Part shown: one piece after another, positions 25,566 to 43,214 of the stretch
How positions within the stretch are numbered: position 1 is the first letter of the stretch
How the letters are laid out: the number at the start of each line of letters is the position of its first letter
From: Erythrobacter sp. JK5
GTDB lineage: Bacteria; Pseudomonadota; Alphaproteobacteria; Sphingomonadales; Sphingomonadaceae
Assembly: GCF_018205975.1 (NCBI RefSeq)
Contig: NZ_CP073577.1
Span: 1,302,001 to 1,366,000 of the forward strand
Length of the DNA: 64,000 bases
Direction of reading: 5' to 3'
Program-made: the position numbers and the translations under genes
The notes under the pieces: generated by a model
Databases searched by the model: none
What the model saw: the letters and a program-made list of their open reading frames with translations, nothing else
Told to the model about the DNA's origin: nothing

Positions 25566-25955
25566 CTAATCGTCTTGCGCCATGTTCTCGTGAGCCGCCA
25601 TCTGCTCCATCATGTCATGCATCATCATCATGTGCTGGTGACAGGCCGCCATCATATCGGCGTTGTCCCCCTGCATCATGCCCGCCATGTGTTCCTGCAT
25701 TTTTGCACGATGTTCGGCCATAAGCCTTTGGCGTTCGGCAAGATCGCTCGCCGCGTGGGCCTGCTGCAACAGCGCGCGCATTTCAGCCATCTTCTCGCGG
25801 TGGGCCGTCATGGCCGCCGAATCCTGCATCATATGGCCAGCGTGTGACTGCTGCTGCGCCGCCGCTTGATCCCCGTGGTCATGCTGTTGCCGGGCCATTG
25901 CCGGGGTGGTTGCCAGGCCGGTGGCGAGCGCGAAAGCTAGAACTGTCAGTTTCAT
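25566..25955 (-). CDS. periplasmic His/Met-rich protein, 129 aa
   Basis: Predicted exported metal-binding protein. The ATG at 25955, with AAGGAAATCG upstream, gives a signal peptide LAFALATGLATTPAMARQ. The mature part has QHDHGDQAAA, a helical Arg/Glu-rich centre (LAERQRLMAEHRAKMQEHM) and a Met/His-rich tail (HMMMMHDMMEQMAAHENM). The helical centre and the metal ligands resemble Spy/CnrX-type periplasmic proteins or copper chaperones, but no exact family is certain. One of the five TTTGAGGG-N16-CGTA promoters stands 55 bases upstream, so it is probably under the island's ECF sigma factor. Confidence 0.65.
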   Translation of the reverse strand: MKLTVLAFALATGLATTPAMARQQHDHGDQAAAQQQSHAGHMMQDSAAMTAHREKMAEMRALLQQAHAASDLAERQRLMAEHRAKMQEHMAGMMQGDNADMMAACHQHMMMMHDMMEQMAAHENMAQDD

Positions 25956-26009
25956 GGTCGATTTCCTTTCGTCGGTCTTCCGGTGGATGCTGTGTTCATT
26001 CATCCTCTT

Positions 26010-26037
26010 TACGCAGCCGCCATCTCTTCCCCTCAAA
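26010..26037 (-). promoter_or_regulatory. candidate ECF-sigma promoter of the His/Met-rich protein gene
   Basis: On the minus strand TTTGAGGG (TGAGGG at 26030-26035) is followed by exactly 16 bases and CGTA (26010-26013), then AAG. The -10 element lies 55 bases from the ATG at 25955. Same motif and spacing as at 31344, 32698, 32733 and 34421. Confidence 0.65.
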
Positions 26038-26178
26038 CAATCCGCAGCAGCGGTGGGGCTGGTGGGCCGAAGCACGGCCGGTTGCAGCGGTGCTGTTTTT
26101 CGGCCACCTTTTTGAGAGAAGCCGATAACGACGAATGGGGAGTATCATGGTGCCAGCAGAGCCGTCGGAGAAGCAGTC

Positions 26179-26466
26179 GTGAGCACGGTCAATGAGAACG
26201 GTAGCTGGGATATCCCGGAGCCCGATCATGCCGATCTGGTGCAAATGCGCATTCGCCTCATTACTCTCGAGAACATAGTTCTTGGCCTTTTGTCCGGGGC
26301 GAGCGATGAACAGATCGAACAGATTAGGAAACGTGCGGACATGATCGAACCGCGCCCCGATGCGAGCCGGCACCCGCTTACCGAACTGGCAGCAGGTGAC
26401 ATGCGGAAATTTCTCAAACGCGCTGCTCGCATGGCCGAGTCGGAGGGCCGCGAAAATCATGACTGA
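26179..26466 (+). CDS. conserved hypothetical protein, 95 aa
   Basis: Family not recognised. It starts at a GTG at 26179 with GGAG eight bases upstream. The protein is soluble and mainly helical (MRIRLITLENIVLGLLSGAS, EQIEQIRKRADMI) and has no Cys; a regulator- or adaptor-like role is possible. It is the first of two plus-strand genes between two minus-strand blocks. Coordinates and codon use look real, since the frame avoids stops and has normal GC3. Confidence 0.5.
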   Translation: MSTVNENGSWDIPEPDHADLVQMRIRLITLENIVLGLLSGASDEQIEQIRKRADMIEPRPDASRHPLTELAAGDMRKFLKRAARMAESEGRENHD

Positions 26467-26559
26467 TCCAGGCTTTGGGGCAGCGAAGGCGCTATGCAGG
26501 AAGTGGAAATCCGGCCGCTTGCTATTTGCTGGCGCAGATTATTCCGGCGTACCTGCAGC

Positions 26560-27000
26560 ATGACCAGAACCCATTGGCTGATCCTTATTTGCGGGAGCCT
26601 GGTCGCGTTCGTCTGGGAGATTTTCCAGATGCCATTCTTCGAACCGGGTGATCTCGAACCCTTCGAGCGGACCATTCGCTGCGGCATTGCAAGCCTGGGC
26701 GATGGCGTGATCCTGCTGACAGGTTATAGCCTTGCAGCACTACGTGGCGGGCACGCATGGCTCTGGCAAGCCGCCAAAATGCCCTATGCGGTCTATTTCG
26801 GCTTCGGGCTTGTCGTCGCAATCGCCGTCGAAATGATCGCCACATCGCTTCCGGCAAACAGTTTCCTGAGCTGGCGCTACAGCGAGTTGATGCCGCACGA
26901 GCCAGTGACGGGACTAGCGCTGATCCCGATCGCGATGTGGACGGTCGTGCCGGCGCTAACGATCCTTCTGGTCCGCTTTGCCCGAGCCGAACCTGATTAA
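26560..27000 (+). CDS. small multi-spanning membrane protein, 146 aa
   Basis: Family not recognised. Four hydrophobic segments lie at about residues 5-20, 40-65, 72-95 and 118-140. Motifs are WEIFQMPFFEPGDLEPFERTIRC, given here as EIFQMPFFEPGDLEPFER, and SFLSWRYSELMPH. The start is uncertain: the ATG at 26560 gives a proper first helix, whereas one at 26494 adds 22 basic residues. It lies 33 bases after the coding frame of the previous gene allowing the later start, and shares no obvious operon partner downstream. The role in the metal island is unknown. Confidence 0.5.
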   Translation: MTRTHWLILICGSLVAFVWEIFQMPFFEPGDLEPFERTIRCGIASLGDGVILLTGYSLAALRGGHAWLWQAAKMPYAVYFGFGLVVAIAVEMIATSLPANSFLSWRYSELMPHEPVTGLALIPIAMWTVVPALTILLVRFARAEPD

Positions 27001-27013
27001 ACTGGGAGCGGCT

Positions 27014-27748
27014 TCAGGGTGCATTCGGCACATGTTTCGCCCGCCGCCTGATCCTGGGAAACCGGTTGGCAAGCAGCACGAAGCCCGAAACCGCGATGAT
27101 TGTCCCGCCGATCCCGAACAGTAGCAGCCACCAGCTGTTGATCCGGTCGCGCTGCGTCCAGTCCATGATATGCAGCCCCCAGACAAAGTCAAACAAGCGC
27201 CAGGTGTCGCTGCGGGCAGCGAGCACCGAGCCGCTCGATGCATCGATGTAGACGCGGGTATTATCCTCATCGCCGTAAGTGATTTGCCACGCCGGGAACG
27301 GACCGCGGAATTCGGTCCCGACTGCGTCTTCCACGAAAAGTGTTTTCGCTATGGTGGTTCGCGGCCCGGTCCAGGCACGTCGGGCGATGGCCTGTGCGCT
27401 CGCAGCGGGAAGAGGCGAGAGGAGCATGCCGCTTTCCGGATCGCGGAGCGTGACGCTTCCATCTTCCCGACGGACCTCGGTCACGGCCCTGCCGCCGACC
27501 GCGCGCGTCGCAAGGGAAACCACCCCCTCGCTGCTATCGAGCCATTGGGGCATGACAGCATCAGCGGGCAGGACCTCCGGCGCGCGCGAAACGACATGTT
27601 CGGACCGAACCTCTTCGATGTCGAGGAACGACATCAGCGCCCCGGTGGCCATCCATAGTAGCACCTGGACGCCGACAAAGATCGCCAGCCATTTGTGAAA
27701 CTTGCTGCCCAGCACATGCAGACGCAGCTTGAAAGAGCGAGTCGCCAA
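27014..27748 (-). CDS. PepSY-domain membrane protein, 244 aa
   Basis: PepSY-associated inner-membrane protein. It starts at a TTG at 27748 with GGGGGAAC upstream. Helices lie near residues 18-40 (LAIFVGVQVLLWMATGALM) and 200-228 (WWLLLFGIGGTIIAVSGFVLLA). Between them is a periplasmic region with RVYIDASSGSVLAARSD, the PepSY core. It follows the DUF4440-type gene by 20 bases in the copB operon. Related proteins occur with iron/copper uptake or reduction; a role in moving electrons or metal across the membrane is only suggested. Confidence 0.7.
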   Translation of the reverse strand: MATRSFKLRLHVLGSKFHKWLAIFVGVQVLLWMATGALMSFLDIEEVRSEHVVSRAPEVLPADAVMPQWLDSSEGVVSLATRAVGGRAVTEVRREDGSVTLRDPESGMLLSPLPAASAQAIARRAWTGPRTTIAKTLFVEDAVGTEFRGPFPAWQITYGDEDNTRVYIDASSGSVLAARSDTWRLFDFVWGLHIMDWTQRDRINSWWLLLFGIGGTIIAVSGFVLLANRFPRIRRRAKHVPNAP

Positions 27749-27768
27749 TCGGTGTTCCCCCGATCAAA

Positions 27769-28329
27769 TCAGTTGTTACGCGGCGCTCGTGACGACGAAT
27801 GGTACTGAACGATCTTCCAGCCATCCGCATCATGGGCGAGCACCGAGGTCGCAACGCCTTCGCGGTCGATCACGCGGCCGTCGGCAAGTTCGATCCGATA
27901 GGTGTACGTTTCGCGGCCATAAGCCATATGTCCCATCCGGGTGACTGCGAGCGTCGGTTCGCCGAAGGTGAAGCTGGTTATTGCGTCAAGTTCCGGTCCC
28001 AGGTGATGCTCCATGTAATGCGTGAAGCTGCCTTCCGCCTTGCCGTTTTCGTAAACGAAGGATTCCTCGGCAAACAGCGCGGCCATCGCCTCTGCATCGC
28101 GCGCTGTAAGGGCATCGCGATATGAGGTCAGAACCGCCTCGGCTCCCGTAACGTCATCGTTCATCGCAGCCATATGTTCGGCATGGTTCATGTCCTGGCC
28201 CGAATGGTCCATCGGCATCGCCTCGGAATGTTCCGAATGCGCCGAATGGTCCATGGATTGTGCCACGGCGGGAGTGGCACCCGCGGCCAAGGCCAGGGCG
28301 ACCGCGCTTAGAGATAGTCTCGTTCTCAT
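27769..28329 (-). CDS. exported SnoaL/DUF4440-like protein with His/Met N-terminus, 186 aa
   Basis: Predicted periplasmic protein. After a signal peptide (SLSAVALALAAGATPAVAQS) comes a metal-binding stretch (DHSAHSEHSEAMPMDHSGQDMNHAEHM). From about residue 60 the sequence is an NTF2-like domain: VLTSYRDALTARDAEAMAALFAEES and VATSVLAHDADGWKIVQYHSS are typical DUF4440 ends. It lies 16 bases downstream of copB. The N-terminal stretch suggests copper binding; the catalytic role of the NTF2-like part, if any, is unknown. Confidence 0.7.
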   Translation of the reverse strand: MRTRLSLSAVALALAAGATPAVAQSMDHSAHSEHSEAMPMDHSGQDMNHAEHMAAMNDDVTGAEAVLTSYRDALTARDAEAMAALFAEESFVYENGKAEGSFTHYMEHHLGPELDAITSFTFGEPTLAVTRMGHMAYGRETYTYRIELADGRVIDREGVATSVLAHDADGWKIVQYHSSSRAPRNN

Positions 28330-28345
28330 TGTATATTTCCTTCTC

Positions 28346-29503
28346 TTAAAACCAGAATCGCAAGCCCACGATGTAATTCGTCACGCTCGGGTCTTCACCT
28401 GCAGCGCGTGCAAAATCGGCGCTCTGACCGATCCGCCATTCCTGCGAAACGCCGACATAGGGCGCGAATTCGCGTGCGAACTCGTAGCGAAGACGCAGAC
28501 CTGCCTCGATCCGGTCGAGGCCAGCGCCAATGCCGAGTTCGGGAATATCCTGAGCGGAAAGTGCGATTTCGGCACGCGGTTGAAGGATCAGCCGCTGCGT
28601 GATGCGCTGATCAAGCTCGCCCTCAAAACGCGCCGTCACATCGCCTTTGTTCGATACGAACGCTGCAACGTCTACCTCGAACTGGTAGGGAGCAATGCCC
28701 TGTATGCCAATGACCGCATGGGTCCGCTCGGGCCCTGTCAGATCCTTGCGGACACCGGCTTGGAAATCGAAGAAGGGCGCGATGGCGCGGCTCCAGAGCG
28801 CCTGGACCTCGGCGCCCTCGACTGGCTCACCGAAGCTGCCTTCACCTTCGGACTTGAACCAGAACTTGTCGATATCACCGCCATAATATCCCTGGATATC
28901 CCAAAGATATCCATCAGCTCCTTCGCGTGCGCGATACTCAAGCCGGTCGCCCTGAAACCAGAAGCGCATCCCGCCGTCGGTCTCGCGGACAAGTTCGCGC
29001 CGCGCTTCGTTCATGGCTTCCTCGCCCCAGATCGCAACCGCCGCGCGCGCGGGACCGCTCCCGGCTTCGGGAGGAGGCGGCAGCAGCGGGATATCGTCGT
29101 TCGAGCCCATCTGCATCGCCGAATGGTCCATGCCCTGCATGTCCTGCGATCCCGTCTGCCGATGGTTCATCTGGCTGTGATCCATCTGCCCATGGTCTGT
29201 CGACGAGCTGCTGGCTTCCGCCTGCCCCATGTCGCCGTGATTCATCTGCGAATGATCCATCGTCGAATGGTCCATCGCAGCTTCAGGCTGGGCAGTACGT
29301 TCGCACGCCCCCTCTGTTACCGGATGCCCCATCGCACGATGGCGCGCGGCTTCCTCCTCGCACTTTACCTTGGCGTCAGCCTGCGCCTGGGCGCTCTGCT
29401 GCGGCTCCGCCGGCGAGTGACCGGCATGCTGGGCTGCGGCGGGCGAAGCGAGGACTGCACCTGCTGCGACGGAGGCGAGGAAGCTGAAATTGAAAGTCTT
29501 CAT
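28346..29503 (-). CDS. copB: copper resistance protein B (outer membrane), 385 aa
   Basis: Outer-membrane copper-resistance protein, partner of CopA. Signal peptide (FSFLASVAAGAVLASPAAAQ), then a long Met/His-rich copper-binding segment with repeated DHSQMNH/DHSTMDH units (about residues 75-130), and a beta-barrel of about 230 residues from ARAAVAIWGEEAMNEARRE onward, with GDRLEYR and DIQGYYGGDIDKFWFKSEG, both diagnostic of CopB. It ends in VGLRFWF with a terminal Phe. The ATG overlaps the copA stop (ATGA). The length is as usual for the long form of the family. Confidence 0.9.
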   Translation of the reverse strand: MKTFNFSFLASVAAGAVLASPAAAQHAGHSPAEPQQSAQAQADAKVKCEEEAARHRAMGHPVTEGACERTAQPEAAMDHSTMDHSQMNHGDMGQAEASSSSTDHGQMDHSQMNHRQTGSQDMQGMDHSAMQMGSNDDIPLLPPPPEAGSGPARAAVAIWGEEAMNEARRELVRETDGGMRFWFQGDRLEYRAREGADGYLWDIQGYYGGDIDKFWFKSEGEGSFGEPVEGAEVQALWSRAIAPFFDFQAGVRKDLTGPERTHAVIGIQGIAPYQFEVDVAAFVSNKGDVTARFEGELDQRITQRLILQPRAEIALSAQDIPELGIGAGLDRIEAGLRLRYEFAREFAPYVGVSQEWRIGQSADFARAAGEDPSVTNYIVGLRFWF

Positions 29504-31311
29504 GCTTCGCTCCCGTCCGGATTGGCAACCGTGACGATCTGAAACATCCCGGCATGCATGTGGTAGAGAAGGTGGCAGTGGAAGGCCCAGTCGCCCGGCT
29601 CGTCCGCCGTCAGGTCGAACTGCGCGCTGCCACCCGGCTGCAGGATAACTGTGTGCTTGAGCGGTTGACGGTCGGCCGGGGCGCCATTGACCAGCTCGAA
29701 GAAGTGCCCGTGCAGATGGATCGGGTGCGCCATCATCGTGTCGTTGATGAGCTTCACGCGCACGCGCTCGTTATAGGCGAAACGGATCGGCTCGTCGGAG
29801 ACGGCGGAAAACTTCTTGCCGTCAAACGACCACATGTAGCGTTCCATGTTCCCGGTGAGATGGATTTCCATCCGCCGCGAGGGAGTCCGGCCCTCCCGAT
29901 GAGGTGTCAGCGAGCGGAGCTTGCGATAGTCGAGCGTGCGGTGAGGGACATCGGCGAGGCCGATGCCGGGATCGCCCATTCGGTCGACCGGGTTCATCGA
30001 GACCATGTCTAGCCCGGGTCCGACCTTCACATCGGGAGGCAAGCGCGAGATATCACGCATCTGCATGCCTCCCGCCATTCCGGCCATGCCCGCCATATCC
30101 GAATCGCCGGACGAACCATGGTCCATTCCCGCCATGTCACCGCCACTGCTGTGGTCCATTCCGGTCATGCCGGCATCGCCGCCGGAGCCATGGTCCATGC
30201 CGCTCATGCCCATATCGGCCATGGTCAGCAGCGGGGGATCGCGCAGCGGAGGTATGGCGGCGCGCGCGCCGGGTGTGCTCGCAAGTGTGGCAATACCCAT
30301 GCCGGAGCGGTCCATGGACTCTGCCACCAGCGTGTAAGCCTGTTGCTCGCCCGGCGTCACGACGACATCGTAGGTTTCGGCAACGCCGATCTGGAACTCG
30401 TCGACCTCGACCGGTTCGACATCCTTCCCGTCCGCCTGCACGACAGTCATCGGCAAGCCGGGAATACGGATATTGAAGAAGGTCATGGCTCCGGCATTGA
30501 TGAAGCGCAGGCGTACGCGCTCGCCGGGGCGGAAGAGATATTCCAGGTTGTCGAGCGGGCCGTGACCATTGAGGAGGTAAGTGTAGGCAGCGCTCGACAC
30601 ATCGAGGATGTCGGTCGGCATCATGCGCATCCTGGCCCACATCCGGCGGTCCTCGCCCGAAAGCGAATAGTCGTCGGTCCAGGTGCTCTGGTTGTAGTTG
30701 AAGTAGCCTTCGCCCTTCTTGAGCTTGTCGAAGATCGTGTGGGGCGACATATCGCTGAATTCGCTCAGCACCACGATATATTCGCGGTCGGCCCGCACCG
30801 GATCGGGTCCGGCGGGATCGACCACGATAGCGCCGTAGTGCCCGGCCTGTTCCTGCAACCCGCTATGCGAGTGCCACCAATAAGTTCCTGCCTGCCGCAC
30901 GGGAAATTCCGCTGTGAATGTCTCGCCTGGTTTGACGCCGGGAAAGCTCACGCCGGGTACACCGTCCAGTTGGAACGGCACGAGCAGACCGTGCCAGTGA
31001 ATTGAGGTATCTTCCTCGAGCTGATTATGAACGTTCAACCGCACGGTCGTGCCCTCTTGCAAACGCAACAGCGGACCGGGGATCGTGCCGTTGACGGCGA
31101 TGGCGCCGCCGCGCCTGTTACCCGTCGCGAAGGCAGAACGTGCGACGGTGAGGTCGATATTCGGCCCCGCTACCTCGTCCAATCCTTTCCTAGCGTTACC
31201 CGCCAGGATGTCCGCACCGCGCGCCCAGGCCGGCATGGCACCGGAGAGACCAAGCAGGCCCAGCCCGCTAGCACTTGTTCCAAGGAATTTTCGGCGATTG
31301 AGGGCAGGCAT
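29500..31311 (-). CDS. copA: multicopper oxidase CopA, Tat-exported copper resistance protein, 603 aa
   Basis: Periplasmic multicopper oxidase that oxidises Cu(I) and sequesters copper. A Tat signal is visible (NRRKFLGTSASGLGLLGLSG). Copper ligands are H105 and H107 in IHWHG, H147 and H149 in WWHSHSG, H529 onward in HPIHLHGHFF, and the HCHLLYHMHAGMFQ motif at about 578-591. A Met/His-rich insert (about 370-415) has repeats such as GMDHGSGGD and MAGMAGM. It is the first gene of the copA-copB-DUF4440-PepSY operon. Its own TTTGAGGG-N16-CGTA promoter overlaps the end of the sigma-factor gene. CopA of this operon is not the same as the CopA-type P-type ATPase at 40364. Confidence 0.95.
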   Translation of the reverse strand: MPALNRRKFLGTSASGLGLLGLSGAMPAWARGADILAGNARKGLDEVAGPNIDLTVARSAFATGNRRGGAIAVNGTIPGPLLRLQEGTTVRLNVHNQLEEDTSIHWHGLLVPFQLDGVPGVSFPGVKPGETFTAEFPVRQAGTYWWHSHSGLQEQAGHYGAIVVDPAGPDPVRADREYIVVLSEFSDMSPHTIFDKLKKGEGYFNYNQSTWTDDYSLSGEDRRMWARMRMMPTDILDVSSAAYTYLLNGHGPLDNLEYLFRPGERVRLRFINAGAMTFFNIRIPGLPMTVVQADGKDVEPVEVDEFQIGVAETYDVVVTPGEQQAYTLVAESMDRSGMGIATLASTPGARAAIPPLRDPPLLTMADMGMSGMDHGSGGDAGMTGMDHSSGGDMAGMDHGSSGDSDMAGMAGMAGGMQMRDISRLPPDVKVGPGLDMVSMNPVDRMGDPGIGLADVPHRTLDYRKLRSLTPHREGRTPSRRMEIHLTGNMERYMWSFDGKKFSAVSDEPIRFAYNERVRVKLINDTMMAHPIHLHGHFFELVNGAPADRQPLKHTVILQPGGSAQFDLTADEPGDWAFHCHLLYHMHAGMFQIVTVANPDGSEA

Positions 31312-31343
31312 AGGGGGCTCCTGAAAATGCGTATACCGTCACA

Positions 31344-31371
31344 TACGCGGTCAGCTGCCCTACCCCTCAAA
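31344..31371 (-). promoter_or_regulatory. candidate ECF-sigma promoter of copA, inside the 3' end of the sigma gene
   Basis: On the minus strand TTTGAGGG (TGAGGG at 31364-31369) is followed by exactly 16 bases and CGTA (31344-31347), then TG. The -35 element is formed by the last codons (Phe-Glu-Gly) of the sigma-factor gene, whose stop is at 31360-31362. The ATG of copA is 33 bases from the -10 element. Confidence 0.7.
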
Positions 31372-31926
31372 CTTTTCGAACCGCTCCTTCAGCCGGTTGC
31401 GCGCACGATAGATGCGCGTCTCGACGGCTTTCTCGGTGGTGCCGAGCAGCTCGGCAGCCTCGGCCTGGCTGTACCCCTCGACAGTGACCAGCACGAGCGC
31501 CTCTTGTAGGCGCACCGGCAAGCGCCCGATTTCGGCCTGGACCAGCCGCAGCTGTTCGCGGGCTCCGGCAACATTTTCGGGATTAGGGGCATCGTCGGCA
31601 ACGGCGTCGGCTTCCCGGCCGCTCGGCAAGCCAAGGAAGCCCGCAACTTTCCTCCGGCGAAGCTTGTCGCGGCACTTGTTGAGAACGATTGTCGTCAAAT
31701 AGGGACCGATGGGCTTGCTCGGGTCGAGGCGATGCCGTGTCAGCCAGACCGAAGCGAGACCGTCCTGGACGACATCTTCGGCCAGCGATGGTGAACCCAG
31801 CATACGCGTGGCAAGCGCGATCAACCGGGCGATCTCATGTTCGACGAGAGTTGTGAACGCCCGCTTGTCACCGGCTATTGCCCGCCCGATCAGCGCTGCG
31901 TTCGAAGTGTCATCCACCGCTGCCAA
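31360..31926 (-). CDS. ECF-type RNA polymerase sigma factor, CnrH-like, 188 aa
   Basis: Extracytoplasmic-function sigma factor of the sigma-70 group. Region 2 lies at about residues 25-90 (AFTTLVEHEIARLIALATRML, ending in the DVVQDGLASVW and KCRDKLRRRK stretches), and region 4 at about 130-185 (LPVRLQEALVLVTVEGYSQ, LLGTTEKAVETRIYRARNRL). It is the third gene of a Y-X-H set like cnrYXH, 6 bases after the sensor. A TTG start at 31926 is used, with a GTG at 31917 as alternative. It should be held by the anti-sigma protein encoded at 32371 and released when metal binds the sensor. A candidate promoter for it stands before the anti-sigma gene, giving autoregulation. Confidence 0.85.
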   Translation of the reverse strand: MAAVDDTSNAALIGRAIAGDKRAFTTLVEHEIARLIALATRMLGSPSLAEDVVQDGLASVWLTRHRLDPSKPIGPYLTTIVLNKCRDKLRRRKVAGFLGLPSGREADAVADDAPNPENVAGAREQLRLVQAEIGRLPVRLQEALVLVTVEGYSQAEAAELLGTTEKAVETRIYRARNRLKERFEKFEG

Positions 31927-31932
31927 GGCTGA

Positions 31933-32367
31933 TCAGTCACGCGGATCGCGCGTGAGGGCCGCGGACACTTTCCGGTCGAACTGGAGCTGCTGATCGGGAT
32001 CGAGAATTTCCCGCATATCGAAGACGTGCCGCACGGTCGCTTTCTGCAATTCGCCCATGCGCGCATGCACCTCGTCGATCGCGGCACTGACTTCGGGTCC
32101 GTATTCGTGCTCGGTTTCCATTGCCTGGGCGAGCTGTGCGTTGGCTGCGCGCGCAGAGGCTTCGAGCCTTGCCTGTTCTACCGCGAAACGCGCTTCGAGC
32201 GCATCGAGCCGCTCCTCCTGGTCAGCCGTGAGCGAGAGTTCATCGTGCACGAACTGGTGCAGGCTGTCCTCCGCATCGTCGTTGGACCAGCGATCGGCGG
32301 CAAGCGCTCCGAGGCATCCGGCGAGCGCCGCCAGCAGAACCGCGAGGACAAGGTGAAACTTCTTCAA
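31933..32367 (-). CDS. CnrX-like periplasmic metal sensor, 144 aa
   Basis: Membrane-anchored periplasmic metal sensor of the CnrX/Spy (CpxP-like) helical fold. After a signal anchor (HLVLAVLLAALAGCLGALAA) it has SLHQFVHDELSLTADQEERL, the CnrX-type HxxxH-(D/E)-L-LT-Q motif, and VRHVFDMREILDPDQQLQF near the C-terminus. The five CnrX metal ligands (H42, H46, E63, H119, M123) line up without a gap as H37, H41, E58, H114 and M118. The gene sits between the anti-sigma and the sigma genes as in cnrYXH. It should bind metal and relieve the anti-sigma protein. It is classed as nickel/cobalt by ligands, but the neighbours are copper genes. Confidence 0.85.
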   Translation of the reverse strand: MKKFHLVLAVLLAALAGCLGALAADRWSNDDAEDSLHQFVHDELSLTADQEERLDALEARFAVEQARLEASARAANAQLAQAMETEHEYGPEVSAAIDEVHARMGELQKATVRHVFDMREILDPDQQLQFDRKVSAALTRDPRD

Positions 32368-32370
32368 CGC

Positions 32371-32667
32371 CTATGATCCCACATGAAGCAAAGCAGCGGG
32401 TGACAGGGATTCTCCGCCAACGAGGCTCTCGCCAACAATTTCTGTAGGAGCGCCATATTCGGAAGGCCATCCGCTGGTCCCTGCGCCAGCTGCCAGCCCG
32501 ACGACAAACAGACCGGCGAACAAGGCCATTCTGCGTCGCTGATCGACAATTTCGCCAAGCTGTCCCGCGCGCTGCCAGACGCCGTTCATGAAGTCGGGCG
32601 GCACGTCGCCAGCCTTCTGCGAGGCCATGGTGCCGAGCATCGCATCGAGTGTCTGATTTTCACGCAT
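32371..32667 (-). CDS. CnrY-like anti-sigma factor, 98 aa
   Basis: Short inner-membrane anti-sigma protein. The cytosolic part (residues 1-45) has LDAMLGTMASQKAGDVPPDF and an amphipathic helix (FMNGVWQRAGQLGEIVDQRRR, given here as VWQRAGQLGEIVDQRRR). One transmembrane helix (MALFAGLFVVGLAAGAG) and a short periplasmic tail follow. Size, topology and position (first of three, before sensor and sigma) match CnrY/NccY. It is co-transcribed with the two following genes and 3 bases apart from the sensor. The family is too short to be sure by sequence alone. Confidence 0.75.
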   Translation of the reverse strand: MRENQTLDAMLGTMASQKAGDVPPDFMNGVWQRAGQLGEIVDQRRRMALFAGLFVVGLAAGAGTSGWPSEYGAPTEIVGESLVGGESLSPAALLHVGS

Positions 32668-32697
32668 CCCTTGCTCCTGTCGGTTGCACGGTTCCTA

Positions 32698-32725
32698 TAC
32701 GCGACACTTCGCGCAAACCCTCAAG
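32698..32725 (-). promoter_or_regulatory. candidate ECF-sigma promoter of the Y-X-H operon
   Basis: Minus strand: CTTGAGGG (TGAGGG at 32718-32723), exactly 16 bases, then CGTA (32698-32701) and TA. The anti-sigma ATG at 32667 is about 30 bases downstream. It is back to back with the plus-strand copy at 32733. Confidence 0.7.
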
Positions 32726-32732
32726 TTTCTTT

Positions 32733-32760
32733 TTTGAGGGCTGCGGGTTGGCGACGCGTA
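32733..32760 (+). promoter_or_regulatory. candidate ECF-sigma promoter of the methyltransferase-DUF411 operon
   Basis: Plus strand: TTTGAGGG (TGAGGG at 32735-32740), exactly 16 bases, then CGTA (32757-32760) and AG. The start codon at 32817 is 57 bases downstream. Its -35 box and that of the divergent Y-X-H promoter form an inverted repeat, CCCTCA-N11-TGAGGG (32718-32740). Confidence 0.7.
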
Positions 32761-32816
32761 AGAGGAGATATCTGTAGCAACAGCGGTATGTACCAGCGTC
32801 GAATGGGAGCCATGGC

Positions 32817-33503
32817 ATGAAAAGCGCGGCAGTTCCGTCAAAAGAACGCGAGTTCACTCCGCCGCTTGGCAAAAGCTGGCTCACGCCGCTCTATGATGGC
32901 GCGATCGCATTTTTTACGCGCGAGAGCCGGTGGCGCCGCGCAATCGTCGAGGAGGCCGCATTGGTGCCCGGCGACAAGGTCATTGATGTCGGGTGCGGCA
33001 CCGGGACCTTGCTAAGGGCGCTGATGGCCAACTGCCCCGAAGCCGGCTTCATCGGCGTTGAGCCAGACCCCGCAGCGCTGGCGATCGCGCAGCGCAAATT
33101 CGGTGCCGGAGTCGATATGGTCCGGTGGCACAACGGCTTTCTTGACAGTCTCGAGCTTTCCGACGGCTGGCAACCAGATAAGATCGTCAGCAGTCTCGTC
33201 CTTCACCAGGTGCCCGTTTCGCAAAAACGCGCGATCCTCGAGCAGATCGAGAACCTGCTGGCCCCAGGGGGCATGGCGCTGATTGCCGACTATATGGGGC
33301 AGGATGCTCCACTCATGCGCGCGCTGTTCCGTTCGAGCGTTCAGCTACTCGACGGCGTGAAGGACACCCAGCCGAGCGCCGACGGAGCCGTCGAGAAATT
33401 GCTCGCCGAGATTTTCGCGGACACCGAATTGCTCGATCGTATCCATACCGCGACCGGAACCATTTCTCTCTGGCGCGGCATCAAGAAAGGCAATGTTCAA
33501 TGA
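32817..33503 (+). CDS. class I SAM-dependent methyltransferase, 228 aa
   Basis: Cytosolic methyltransferase of the UbiE-like class. Motif I is KVIDVGCGTGTLLRAL (about residues 59-74), preceded by an N-terminal helix region (SWLTPLYDGAIAFFTRESRW). GVEPDPAALAIAQRKFG is the following strand/helix, and LAPGGMALIADYMG the post-motif III part. The substrate is unknown; a similar gene sits in the czc operon at 58943. It is the first gene of a plus-strand operon with DUF411 (ATGA overlap) and DUF5676-like genes, behind an ECF-type promoter. Possible roles are quinone, lipid or metalloid methylation. Confidence 0.8.
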   Translation: MKSAAVPSKEREFTPPLGKSWLTPLYDGAIAFFTRESRWRRAIVEEAALVPGDKVIDVGCGTGTLLRALMANCPEAGFIGVEPDPAALAIAQRKFGAGVDMVRWHNGFLDSLELSDGWQPDKIVSSLVLHQVPVSQKRAILEQIENLLAPGGMALIADYMGQDAPLMRALFRSSVQLLDGVKDTQPSADGAVEKLLAEIFADTELLDRIHTATGTISLWRGIKKGNVQ

Positions 33504-33967
33504 ACCTCATGAAAGACTCGAGACCGCTGCGCCGTTCGCTGGCGGCCTCGCTCCTCCTCGCCCTTGCAGCCTGCTCGAATGCAGCCCAGGCCGCGACCTA
33601 CACCATGTACCGCGACGCAGGATGCGGCTGCTGTCTCAACTGGGCCGGTCACGTCGAACATGGGCTCGAAGCAGAGGTCGCCTCGGTCGACACCGACGAC
33701 ATGGCTGCGCTCAAGACAGCCAGGGGTGTGCCGCAGGATCTGTGGTCGTGTCACACGATGGAAGTCGATGGCTATATCATCGAAGGCCACGTGCCCGCCG
33801 ATGCCGTCGCGAAGCTATTGCGCGAACGCCCTGAGGGCGTTGCCGGTCTGGCCGTGCCCGGAATGCCGCTTGGCTCGCCCGGAATGGAAGTCGGGTACCA
33901 AGTGCAGCCTTATGACGTCATCGCCTTCGGTCCAGGCGGGCGGAGCGTGTTCGCATCCTACCCGTGA
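33500..33967 (+). CDS. DUF411 family periplasmic metal-binding protein, 155 aa
   Basis: Exported protein of the DUF411 family, usual in copper-resistance clusters. A signal region (LRRSLAASLLLALAACSNAAQA), which also has a lipobox-like LALAAC, is followed by TMYRDAGCGCCLNWAGHV, the family's conserved Cys cluster. Other conserved parts are VPQDLWSCHTMEVDGYIIEGHVP, given here as LWSCHTMEVDGYIIEGHVP, and GLAVPGMPLGSPGME. The Cys/His/Met residues probably bind Cu(I). Its start overlaps the methyltransferase stop (ATGA). Confidence 0.85.
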   Translation: MNLMKDSRPLRRSLAASLLLALAACSNAAQAATYTMYRDAGCGCCLNWAGHVEHGLEAEVASVDTDDMAALKTARGVPQDLWSCHTMEVDGYIIEGHVPADAVAKLLRERPEGVAGLAVPGMPLGSPGMEVGYQVQPYDVIAFGPGGRSVFASYP

Positions 33968-34011
33968 CTATGGACGAGCCAGTTTCGTGCCAACTCTAAA
34001 GGAGGACCATC

Positions 34012-34287
34012 ATGTCGGACTATTCGGTCAAAACTTCAATACTGATCTGGGGCTGGACGCTCAGTCTCTTCCTGCTTTTCAGCTACCTAATCTGCATCGG
34101 TTTCGGCCTGCTCGCGCCCGAACAGGCGCACATGCACGAAGCGTGGGCGCCGCTGCTTCCCGGTTTCGAATGGCTGACCCTTTCGGGCTTTCTGGCAGGC
34201 GCTCTCGGCAGCTTTCTGTACGGCTGGTACATCGCGGTCATTGGGGTGCCACTGCTGCGATTTTTCCGAAACCGGTTCAGGACGTAG
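34012..34287 (+). CDS. two-helix membrane protein, DUF5676-like, 91 aa
   Basis: Small inner-membrane protein with helices at about residues 8-32 and 52-82. Start ATG with a strong AAAGGAGG site 7 bases upstream. LLAPEQAHMHEAWAPLLPGFEWLTL, given here as PEQAHMHEAWAPLLPGF, lies in the loop and could bind metal (His, Met, Glu). The pattern fits the DUF5676 family, small 2TM proteins found next to heavy-metal genes. It follows the DUF411 gene after 44 bases. No known activity. Confidence 0.6.
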   Translation: MSDYSVKTSILIWGWTLSLFLLFSYLICIGFGLLAPEQAHMHEAWAPLLPGFEWLTLSGFLAGALGSFLYGWYIAVIGVPLLRFFRNRFRT

Positions 34288-34420
34288 TAAATCGGCGGCG
34301 ATGGACGCGTGCCTTGACACTAGCGGAGCGTTTTTCGGTCGCGAAGGCCGTCCGCTTTAGGCCGCAATTTGCTCGAACGCCCCAAGCAAAACGCGACCCT
34401 CCAGCTTTGTCTTGAAAAAT

Positions 34421-34448
34421 TTTGAGGGATGAGCTCCGGCTGAACGTA
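34421..34448 (+). promoter_or_regulatory. candidate ECF-sigma promoter before the APC permease
   Basis: Plus strand: TTTTGAGGG (TGAGGG at 34423-34428), exactly 16 bases, then CGTA (34445-34448) and CT. The permease coding frame begins 24 (ATG) or 51 (TTG) bases later. Confidence 0.65.
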
Positions 34449-34471: not shown

Positions 34472-35851
34472 ATGGGAGGACATCGACAGGGGAAAGTCTT
34501 GCAAGACCATGAGCACGAGAATCAAAGCGAGGCAGCTGGCTCGATAACCCTGCTGGGCGGCGTGGCGATGGGAACCGGCGTCATGATCGGTGCCGGCATA
34601 TTCGCGCTGACCGGGCAGATCGCCGAGCTCGCCGGTCCGCTCTTCCCCTTATCCTTCATCGCCGGCGCGCTGGTAACTTCGCTGGCGGCCTACAGCTATA
34701 TCAAGATGTCGAACAAATGGCCGTCTTCGGGCGGCATCGCGATGATCTTGCAGAAAGCATACGGACCCGGCGTCATTGCCGCGTCGGCATCGCTCCTGAT
34801 GGCTCTGTCGATGGTCATCAATGAAAGCCTCGTGGCCCGCACCTTTGCGACTTACGCGCTGCGCCCGTTCGGCCTCGAAAGCAGCGGGTGGCTCGTTTCT
34901 CTCGCAGCGCTTGCCCTCATCATCTTCGCCTATCTCGTCAATGCAGCGGGCAACAAATCGGTAAGCGGCTTCTCGCTCATCATGTCGGCCATCAAGATCG
35001 GCGGCATCGCGCTATTCGCAGTCGCGGCGATCTGGGCCAGCGGTTTTTCATCAGGCGCGTTTTCGCAGCCCGTTTCGCTGACCAACGCAGAAGCCCTGAT
35101 TGCCTCGGTTGCTTTCTCGATCCTCGCCTTCAAGGGCTTCACCACGATTACCAATAGCGGCGGCGAAATCGTCGACCCGCACAAGAATGTCGGTCGGACC
35201 ATCATGATCTCGATCGCGGTCTGCATCGTGATCTATCTGCTCGTCGCAGTGGCGGTGGGTTCGAGCCTGAGCATATCCGAGATCGTCGAGGCGCGCGATT
35301 ATTCGCTCGCGGCAGCGGCGCGTCCGGCGCTGGGTGAGCTGGGCTTCTATTTCACCGTCGCGATCGCGATCGCCGCAACGACTTCGGGCGTGATCGCGAG
35401 CGTATTTGCTGTGTCGCGCATGCTTGCGATGCTGACCGACATGAAGATGATCCCGCACAGCCATTTCGGCATGAGCGGCGGAATTCGCAGCCACATGCTG
35501 GTCTATACGGTGGTCATTGCCGGGACGCTTGCCGTCCTGTTCGATCTGTCGCGGATCGCCTCGCTGGGCGCCTTCTTCTACCTCGTCATGGATATGCTGG
35601 TGCATTGGGGCGTCCTGCGTCACCTGCGCAAGGAAGTCGGCGCGCGCGCAACAATACTTCTTACAGCACTCGCGGCAGATGGCGTGGTCCTTGCAGCTTT
35701 TACCGCGGCCAAATTGCGCAGCGATCCTGCCGTTGTCGCCTATGCGGCGATCGGCATCGTCGCAGTCTTCATGGGAGAATGGATTTACCTTTCGCACAAT
35801 TCCGAAGCGCCCGCTTCTCACAAAGATGATCGGTCAGGAGAGAAGAGTTGA
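34472..35851 (+). CDS. APC-superfamily amino acid/polyamine permease, 459 aa
   Basis: Multi-spanning inner-membrane transporter. The first membrane segments (GGVAMGTGVMIGAGIFALTGQIA, given here as MGTGVMIGAGIFALTGQIA, and FIAGALVTSLAAYSYIKM) contain the conserved GxxxGAGIF motif of the APC family. About 12 hydrophobic segments follow. The N-terminus has two possible starts: the ATG at 34472 and a TTG at 34499 with AGGGGAAAG upstream, the latter being better placed. The gene is close to an ECF-sigma promoter and so is part of the metal-induced set. The substrate is unknown; similar genes occur in copper islands. Confidence 0.8.
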   Translation: MGGHRQGKVLQDHEHENQSEAAGSITLLGGVAMGTGVMIGAGIFALTGQIAELAGPLFPLSFIAGALVTSLAAYSYIKMSNKWPSSGGIAMILQKAYGPGVIAASASLLMALSMVINESLVARTFATYALRPFGLESSGWLVSLAALALIIFAYLVNAAGNKSVSGFSLIMSAIKIGGIALFAVAAIWASGFSSGAFSQPVSLTNAEALIASVAFSILAFKGFTTITNSGGEIVDPHKNVGRTIMISIAVCIVIYLLVAVAVGSSLSISEIVEARDYSLAAAARPALGELGFYFTVAIAIAATTSGVIASVFAVSRMLAMLTDMKMIPHSHFGMSGGIRSHMLVYTVVIAGTLAVLFDLSRIASLGAFFYLVMDMLVHWGVLRHLRKEVGARATILLTALAADGVVLAAFTAAKLRSDPAVVAYAAIGIVAVFMGEWIYLSHNSEAPASHKDDRSGEKS

Positions 35852-42833: not shown

Positions 42834-43214
42834 TCACTGCTTCGTGATCGACGTGATCACATTGCCTTCAGAACCAGTACGAAATTCAAAGGCAATTCCC
42901 TCACCGACGCTTACTTCGCTGCGCAGTTGTTCATCGGCTCCAAAAGCCATGGTCATCGCAGGCCATTCGATCGCCGGGACCGGACCGTGGTCGACGGTTA
43001 TCGTGCCCGCTTCGGCATCGATTGCAGTGACCGTGCCTTCTGCGTTGGCGGTTTGCATTCCGCTGCCAGGTTCCATCATCGGCATATCTTCGCCGTCCAT
43101 CATTTCATTCTCTGCCATCGGCATGTCGTTCATCTGGGCAGTGTCCTGGCCAGAATCGCAGGCCGCCATCGCCAGCGGAAGGGCCAGTAGGCTCATGAGG
43201 GTTGTGGTACGCAT
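42834..43214 (-). CDS. CusF-like periplasmic copper-binding lipoprotein, 126 aa
   Basis: Periplasmic Cu(I) chaperone for the Cus efflux pump. Lipobox LPLAMAAC (Cys19), then a Met/Asp/Glu-rich stretch ([20 protein letters not shown]), and the CusF domain from about residue 58: [31 protein letters not shown], given here as [18 protein letters not shown], in which the His, Trp and two Met correspond to the CusF copper-binding residues. It overlaps the end of cusA by about 20 bases and is the last gene of the cusCBAF operon. Confidence 0.9.

Follow-up and report, generated by a model that had tools for sequence, protein, structure and literature searches.

Five matching promoters predicted for a CnrH-type ECF sigma factor encoded in a copper-resistance gene cluster

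The window, the 64-kb stretch of DNA analysed here, carries several identical copies of a two-box motif, and the question is which regulator reads them. A pattern scan found five exact copies of TTGAGGG-N16-CGTA within 8.4 kb, where 0.04 copies were expected in the window by chance, and five were reached in none of 100 shuffles. The initial annotation had reported five sites with identical spacing, and on rescan all five were exact. Its positions 26010, 31344 and 32698 were correct, whereas 32733 and 34421 had taken in one extra 5' T and should read 32734 and 34422. The cluster also encodes a CnrH-type ECF sigma factor and, as judged from the sequence, the five sites are very likely its promoters. 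This sigma factor would belong to a CnrYXH-type module wired to copper genes. We conclude that they form a predicted five-promoter regulon inside the cluster (Table 1).

Table 1. Genes of the cluster and predicted promoters P1 to P5 (window positions)
Feature	Position	Strand	Basis
ECF sigma factor, CnrH-like, 188 aa	31360..31926	-	Pfam sigma regions 2 and 4; 4cxf
CnrX-like periplasmic metal sensor, 144 aa	31933..32367	-	PF13801; NccX/CnrX matches; CnrX fold match
Candidate CnrY-like anti-sigma, 98 aa	32371..32667	-	Gene order Y-X-sigma; family alignment
copA, copper-resistance multicopper oxidase	29500..31311	-	TIGR01480 E 4e-233
copB, 3' of copA	28346..29503	-	PF05275 E 5e-86
SnoaL-like protein, presumed copA operon	27769..28329	-	PF13474 E 5e-12
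PepSY-type membrane protein, presumed copA operon	27014..27748	-	PF03929 E 7e-12
His/Met-rich protein, signal-peptide-like start, predicted P4 target	25566..25955	-	Translation
Class I methyltransferase, predicted P2 target	32817..33503	+	PF13649 E 1e-15
DUF411 protein	33500..33967	+	PF04214 E 1.5e-26
91-aa membrane protein	34012..34287	+	ORF; present in 57 scored loci
APC-type permease, predicted P5 target	34499..35851	+	PF13520 E 3e-27
P1	32698..32724	-	Exact motif; before anti-sigma/X/sigma operon; predicted autoregulatory
P2	32734..32760	+	Exact motif; before methyltransferase-DUF411-91 aa operon
P3	31344..31370	-	Exact motif; before copA
P4	26010..26036	-	Exact motif; before His/Met-rich protein gene
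P5	34422..34448	+	Exact motif; before APC permease

The 3.34-Mb genome holds six exact matches, five of which are the window sites, and the reversed pattern gave one match in the genome-wide scan. The sixth match (C1:1852660) was considered as a distant target and ruled out, as the ATG of a 163-aa ORF lies inside the motif; it is very probably a chance occurrence. No TTAAGGG sites were found as a further class in a scan of the same genome. The related sequence GTGAGGG-N16-CGTA occurs at 42878 on the minus strand, upstream of a 776-aa ORF encoding a candidate metal ATPase. It is a weak candidate for a further site, being contained in a 126-aa reading frame (42834-43214) and separated by 183 bases from the start of the 776-aa ORF.

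Each promoter would consist of an A/T tract, a -35 box TTGAGGG, a 16-base spacer and a -10 box CGTA. The -35 boxes of P1 and P2 stand back to back with 9 bp between them, a pairing kept in 71 of 81 loci, and the -35 box of P3 extends into the 3' end of the sigma coding sequence. The sites had been described as lying 24-57 bases before a start codon. Measured from CGTA, the distance is 30 bases for the anti-sigma gene (P1), 56 for the methyltransferase gene (P2) and 32 for copA (P3). For P4 and P5 it depends on the start codon: 54 bases if the His/Met-rich gene starts at 25955 and 6 from an earlier ATG at 26003; 50 bases from the permease TTG at 34499 and 23 from the ATG at 34472. ATG 26003 is too near P4 and lies ahead of the predicted transcript start, and for this reason 25955 is taken as the start. 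For the permease the TTG, with GGGGAAAG 5' of it, is the preferred start. The P1 transcript is predicted to begin near 32689, a position scaled from the CnrH promoters.

The initial annotation had proposed scanning the genome and related islands, with the motif expected to be commoner at metal genes than at random. The genome-wide scan did not contradict this, and across 80 related loci sites stand before the same gene families. A spacing scan of these loci, many of which are recent copies of each other, gave 225 matches with N16 and none with N13-15 or N17-24. In gene-anchored counts, for which genes were found independently of the motif and the first T of the site was left free, 74 of 79 anti-sigma genes, 75 of 76 copA genes and all 22 His/Met-rich genes have a site upstream. 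The permease has a site in 56 of 71 loci (15 without) and the methyltransferase in 44 of 56 (12 without), while a DUF2231-like gene is without one in 32 of 61. Seven other cluster genes have no site upstream (0 of 45-80 loci each). Eleven DUF411 genes have a site of their own, and none of the loci concerned yielded a methyltransferase. When a site carries one change, it is altered solely at the first T or from G3 to A in 102 of 111 cases.

In a family sample of 298 genomes, a close anti-sigma is encoded in 49, and the number of sites follows the presence of the module, with 3.8 sites per genome in anti-sigma-positive genomes and 0.8 in the remaining ones. On the other hand, the TTRAGGG site is absent from four of the 49, and 25 of the 249 anti-sigma-negative genomes have at least three (29 of 249 in the reversed control). 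The gene-anchored counts and the link between site number and module support the earlier suggestion that the motif is the recognition sequence of this sigma factor, which would bind it, and further support comes from diverged clusters retrieved with the motif and from the boxes of the CnrH promoters. In a phylum-wide sample, 19 of 22 X loci have RAGGG-N16/17-CGTA where a promoter would be expected, against 0 of 22 in the reversed control.

The best match of the sigma factor among solved structures is CnrH (4cxf, E 2e-37). The protein consists of regions 2 and 4, with nothing C-terminal to region 4, and contains one Cys. The sensor matches NccX and CnrX (E 2e-20 and 2e-18); the nearest solved sensor sequences are 4clv and 3zg1, and its predicted structure matches the CnrX fold. 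CnrX structure entries include an E63Q mutant. The 98-aa candidate anti-sigma has a conserved hydrophobic stretch in the family alignment, and gave no Pfam match and no sequence match among PDB chains, CnrY included. The Pfam scan of the His/Met-rich protein was likewise without a match.

If the system works like CnrYXH, the 98-aa membrane protein would tether the sigma factor to the membrane until metal, presumably copper, binds to the sensor in the periplasm. Binding would free the sigma factor, which may then direct transcription of its own operon, copA-copB-SnoaL-PepSY, the methyltransferase-DUF411 operon, the His/Met-rich protein and the APC permease together.

The motif could instead be bound by a different regulator, such as one of the MerR or CopR kind, or be a variant of a sigma-70-type promoter, with the sigma factor incidental. 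Copper operons are commonly run by CueR or CopR, and one Caulobacter plasmid has a cueR-like gene close to the module. We nevertheless consider this highly improbable: the element has two boxes at fixed spacing, is oriented toward the gene, stands also before the sigma operon itself and matches the boxes of CnrH promoters. Motif-led regions that turned out to be clusters have sigma, X and CopA in common, and the mean number of sites in anti-sigma-negative genomes does not exceed that of the reversed control. Still less credit can be given to the idea that conservation is only apparent, reflecting a recent horizontal spread of the island with few independent sites. In 18 loci from about nine named genera the sigma proteins are indeed 94-98% identical, but diverged copies whose sigma factors share no more than 32-41% identity still have the motif. 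Among 42 site clusters that diverge by 30% or more outside the boxes, flanks and spacer have decayed, the spacer to near-absence of conservation; decay of the boxes as fast as the spacer was not seen in diverged copies.

A sensor of nickel or cobalt like CnrX, with the cop genes part of a mixed-metal response, is unlikely, though the more serious alternative. In its favour, the five CnrX ligand positions (His/His/Glu/His/Met) are kept in all 79 X proteins. Met123 is required for CnrX signalling according to a published study. On the other side, the genes driven are copper genes, and H87, H101 and M104 of X are almost invariant in this group and replaced in CnrX. CnrX itself was crystallised with copper (3epv, by its title), so the ligands alone do not decide the metal. 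In the predicted secondary structure H87 lies next to a hairpin turn and H101/M104 farther along the next helix, and one joint metal site is therefore doubtful. M83 was dropped from an extra metal site, since Ile replaces it in 16 of 18 diverged copies.

The module occurs on sphingomonad chromosomes and plasmids, Erythrobacter sp. NAP1 being one relative with the island, and sensor relatives are found in 79 plasmid records, six of them from Cupriavidus. With the sites read as promoters of the CnrH-type sigma factor, the promoter code is precise for copper-linked control and would let the poorly understood APC permease, DUF411 protein and methyltransferase be assigned to the regulon by sequence. 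Otherwise matching boxes with a one-base spacer difference offer a natural test of how ECF sigma factors measure spacing. Tentatively, RAGGG-N16/17-CGTA may be a common promoter code of the CnrYXH family phylum-wide, a large alphaproteobacterial branch having turned the nickel/cobalt module into a copper sensor with a His/Met site added to X; at the shared A/T core between two back-to-back -35 boxes, a single polymerase at any one time would choose brake or defence. Among the matches listed in literature searches, titles and abstract starts named no CnrH-type sigma driving copA in sphingomonads, and none with the letters TTGAGGG was on the subject by title. A prediction may already have been published, for instance in the 2021 ECF re-classification, the 2019 metal-ECF review or the 2000 cnr paper.

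Copper-linked ECF systems of other kinds are described in three papers. Like the window sigma, the copper-responsive CorE of Myxococcus xanthus is linked to a multicopper oxidase, but its activity is governed by a Cys-rich extension at the C-terminus and not by an anti-sigma (PMC10141476), and the 188-aa window sigma has no such extension. SigF/NrsF of Caulobacter, with its gig-like cluster, is a copper-induced ECF regulon in an alphaproteobacterium, with the anti-sigma NrsF and DUF692/DUF2282/DoxX targets (PMC8224329); none of these four was found among the scanned window proteins. The copper-active SigAb of Acinetobacter baumannii has two in-operon genes with anti-sigma activity, promoter boxes GTCAAC and CGTT, for which spacings of 16-18 were searched, and a direct regulon of itself, relA and a small RNA (PMC12153292).

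The closest known system is CnrYXH of Cupriavidus metallidurans pMOL28, which shares the gene order Y-X-sigma and, as predicted here, a promoter before Y and another just past the sigma gene. Its membrane anti-sigma wraps the sigma factor with two helices (PMC7406223). The window sites and CnrH promoters have in common -35 RAGGG and -10 CGTA, and on pMOL28 these boxes lie 9 bases ahead of the listed transcript starts, although a cnrY start is labelled RpoD-type in the data of two papers. The spacer is 17 at cnrY and cnrC and 16 in the window; both lengths occur across relatives, and spacer length is therefore not treated as a defining trait of the module. NccX of strain 31A is, next to CnrX, a close relative of the window sensor. 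In contrast, the window sigma is only 35% identical to CnrH, its X has the extra near-invariant His/Met, and the back-to-back divergent promoter is unlike CnrYXH. CnrYXH drives the nickel/cobalt RND efflux pump CnrCBA, which is not among the genes behind the window sites; these precede copA/copB, methyltransferase-DUF411, the permease and the His/Met-rich protein, and the module is hence a variant of CnrYXH, not a cnr determinant.

The initial annotation described five promoter-like sites of the form TKGAGGG-N16-CGTA. The pattern indeed matches five times in the 64-kb window, each time as TTGAGGG, compared with a mean of 0.04 matches in dinucleotide shuffles, none of which (0/100) reached five. 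The genome-wide scan proposed with that description gave six exact matches in the organism's own genome (3,340,457 bases, one contig), five of them the sites of the cluster, and one for the reversed pattern. In the sixth match, the ATG of a 163-aa ORF sits within the motif. When up to one mismatch was allowed, there were 18 genomic sites and 21 for the reversed control, so only exact matches stand out; the regulon seems to be confined to the cluster in this genome. A GTGAGGG-N16-CGTA sequence within a 126-aa reading frame, 183 bases upstream of the start codon of a 776-aa ORF whose translation resembles a metal ATPase, is possibly a sixth site or a chance occurrence.

Features of the window discussed in the text
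Feature	Position	Strand	Remark
Sigma factor gene	31360-31926	-	Downstream of the sensor and candidate anti-sigma genes
CnrX-like sensor gene (X)	31933-32367		
Candidate anti-sigma gene (Y)	32371-32667		98 aa
Facing -35 boxes of the divergent promoters	32718-32740		
APC-type permease gene	34499-35851		
GTGAGGG-N16-CGTA	42878-42904	-	

Downstream of the sigma gene are copA and copB, and the methyltransferase-DUF411 operon is in the opposite orientation. Among solved structures, the nearest to the family profile of the sigma factor is CnrH (4cxf, E 2e-37), and the nearest to the sensor are NccX (E 2e-20) and CnrX (E 2e-18). The predicted sensor model (mean pLDDT 84.8, pTM 0.67) has 15 PDB matches at E ≤0.001, all to CnrX or NccX chains. 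The 98-aa protein matched nothing in Pfam or the PDB; gene order and a conserved hydrophobic stretch read from the alignment make it a candidate anti-sigma factor.

Four of the CnrX positions used in the sensor alignment are ones that we take to be metal ligands. The fifth, Met123, is a ligand according to PMC7689651. All five aligned positions are conserved in 79/79 X proteins of the related loci (47 distinct sequences, the window's included) and in 18/18 diverged X proteins. His-101 and Met-104 are equally invariant, and His-87 nearly so (77/79 related, 17/18 diverged), but the residues of CnrX at these three positions are Glu, Ala, and Pro. As a lead from the sequence, these three residues may form an extra, copper-specific soft-metal site. 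In CnrYXH, metal bound to X loosens Y and the sigma factor is released (PMC7689651); by analogy, metal on the X studied here would loosen Y and free the sigma factor. Because the controlled genes are copper genes, we infer that copper is the signal.

Related loci were gathered with a 28-sequence sigma alignment, and the best 80 of 450 confirmed matches (1.54 Mb in total, with mostly Erythrobacteraceae and sphingomonad titles) contain 225 matches to TTGAGGG-N16-CGTA. In the same sequence, spacers of 9–11, 13–15, and 17–24 bases gave no match, and spacers of 8, 12, and 25 gave 1, 2, and 9. Because many loci are close copies, 230 sites, including the window's, were grouped at <30% difference outside the boxes into 42 clusters. 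These are T/A-rich upstream of the -35 box, almost unconserved in the spacer, and weakly biased 3' of CGTA; as the sites were chosen by their boxes, the comparison informs solely on decay outside them. Allowing one change at N16 spacing added 111 sites, in which the first T was altered (51), G3 was changed to A (51), or another change occurred (9). Where the sigma factor is ~72% identical, the anti-sigma promoter has the form TTAAGGG, which is used elsewhere as well. In loci L019-L036, which come from about nine named genera, the sigma proteins are 94–98% identical, suggesting that the island has moved recently.

To avoid picking sites by motif, the genes were first placed in each locus by their best tblastn hit, and NTRAGGG-N16-CGTA was then sought from 220 bases upstream to 30 bases inside; genes whose alignment began late or that had <120 upstream bases were left out.

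Sites found upstream of independently located genes
Gene	With site	First T present
Anti-sigma	74/79	69
copA	75/76	59
His/Met-rich gene	22/22	22
Methyltransferase	44/56	44
APC permease	56/71	56
DUF2231-like gene	29/61	5
DUF411 gene	11/72	6

No site preceded X (0/79), sigma (0/80), copB (0/67), SnoaL (0/67), PepSY (0/63), the 91-aa gene (0/57), or glutaredoxin-MauE (0/45), and the reversed motif scored 0 for every family. The five anti-sigma genes lacking a site have TTGCGGG (3) or TTGAGTG (2) with the spacer unchanged. All 11 site-bearing DUF411 genes are in loci where the methyltransferase was not found, and in the 12 loci whose methyltransferase has no site, the divergent promoter instead precedes another His/Met-rich protein of 222–245 aa. 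By these counts, the APC-type permease belongs to the conserved part of the predicted copper regulon.

The promoters of the anti-sigma and methyltransferase-DUF411 operons are divergent, with 9 A/T-rich bases between their back-to-back -35 boxes. Similar pairs with gaps of 4–11 bases are found in 71/81 loci, close copies counted separately. Two polymerases could hardly bind both promoters together, which may put the brake and the effector operon in competition. The -35 box of copA overlaps the final codons of the sigma gene, and coding constraint therefore accounts for part of its conservation; the -10 box is beyond the stop codon.

Among the matches listed, TTRAGGG-N16-CGTA occurs at least once in at least 49 of the 50 genomes reached via 50 of the 80 loci. 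Across a set of 298 genomes from the window's family, the mean number of sites is 3.82 (reversed control 1.55) for the 49 that carry the anti-sigma gene and 0.83 (control 1.14) for the remaining 249, a difference with p 2e-19 if the kinship of the genomes is ignored. However, the reversed control is also somewhat higher in the positive group (p 0.007), 4/49 positive genomes carry no site, and 25/249 negative genomes carry at least three (control 29). Twenty regions of negative genomes were taken by motif among the matches listed, several of the genomes having a common genus label. All six regions with at least two sites within 7 kb (five genomes) contain a sigma factor (36–40% identical), X, and CopA, as do 5/14 single-site regions (sigma 32–41%). 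The other nine do not; one, L107, has a 31% sigma match and neither X nor CopA.

An X homologue at E ≤1e-8 is present in 17/398 genomes of the phylum. In 22 X loci, which exclude the window's and of which two are contained in earlier loci (L127 in L096, L131 in L100), RAGGG-N16/N17-CGTA is at the expected Y-promoter place in 19 (reversed control 0/22), and over their whole length there are 52 sites compared with 0 reversed. The Y-promoter spacer is 17 in 4/19 (L128, L130, L142, and L143); L142 is from outside the window's class, and L143 has a 16-base spacer at its other site. One genome, G684, has five sensor homologues (L129, L143, and L146-L148), three without a recognizable Y promoter. Sphingomonad plasmids carry the same boxes with spacer 16 upstream of Y, CopA, or copC. 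On a Caulobacter plasmid, a single site was found, which has spacer 17 and precedes a gene for a copper-binding protein; Y has no site upstream there. Of 79 plasmid records with a sensor relative, 40 are typed conjugative.

On pMOL28 of Cupriavidus metallidurans, the CnrH promoters of cnrY (TCAAGGG-N17-CGTA) and cnrC (CCGAGGG-N17-CGTA) have a spacer of 17, in contrast to 16 in the window. The transcript starts TSS_53286 and TSS_54660, as given in PMC9045368, both lie 9 bases 3' of the final A of CGTA. That study treats cnrYp and cnrCp as CnrH-dependent and also claims a strong RpoD-type promoter upstream of cnrY; PMC11647585 labels TSS_53286 RpoD, and there metals take its signal from 2,918 to a printed "2,8233" (probably 28,233). 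The five-site finding is correct, and the proposal that the sites are the recognition sequence of the sigma factor encoded at 31360 is well supported. In the literature searched, no description was found of the wiring to copper genes, of a 16-base spacer together with a regulon bound to the cluster, or of a family-wide promoter code; the kind of system is a known one, that of CnrYXH.
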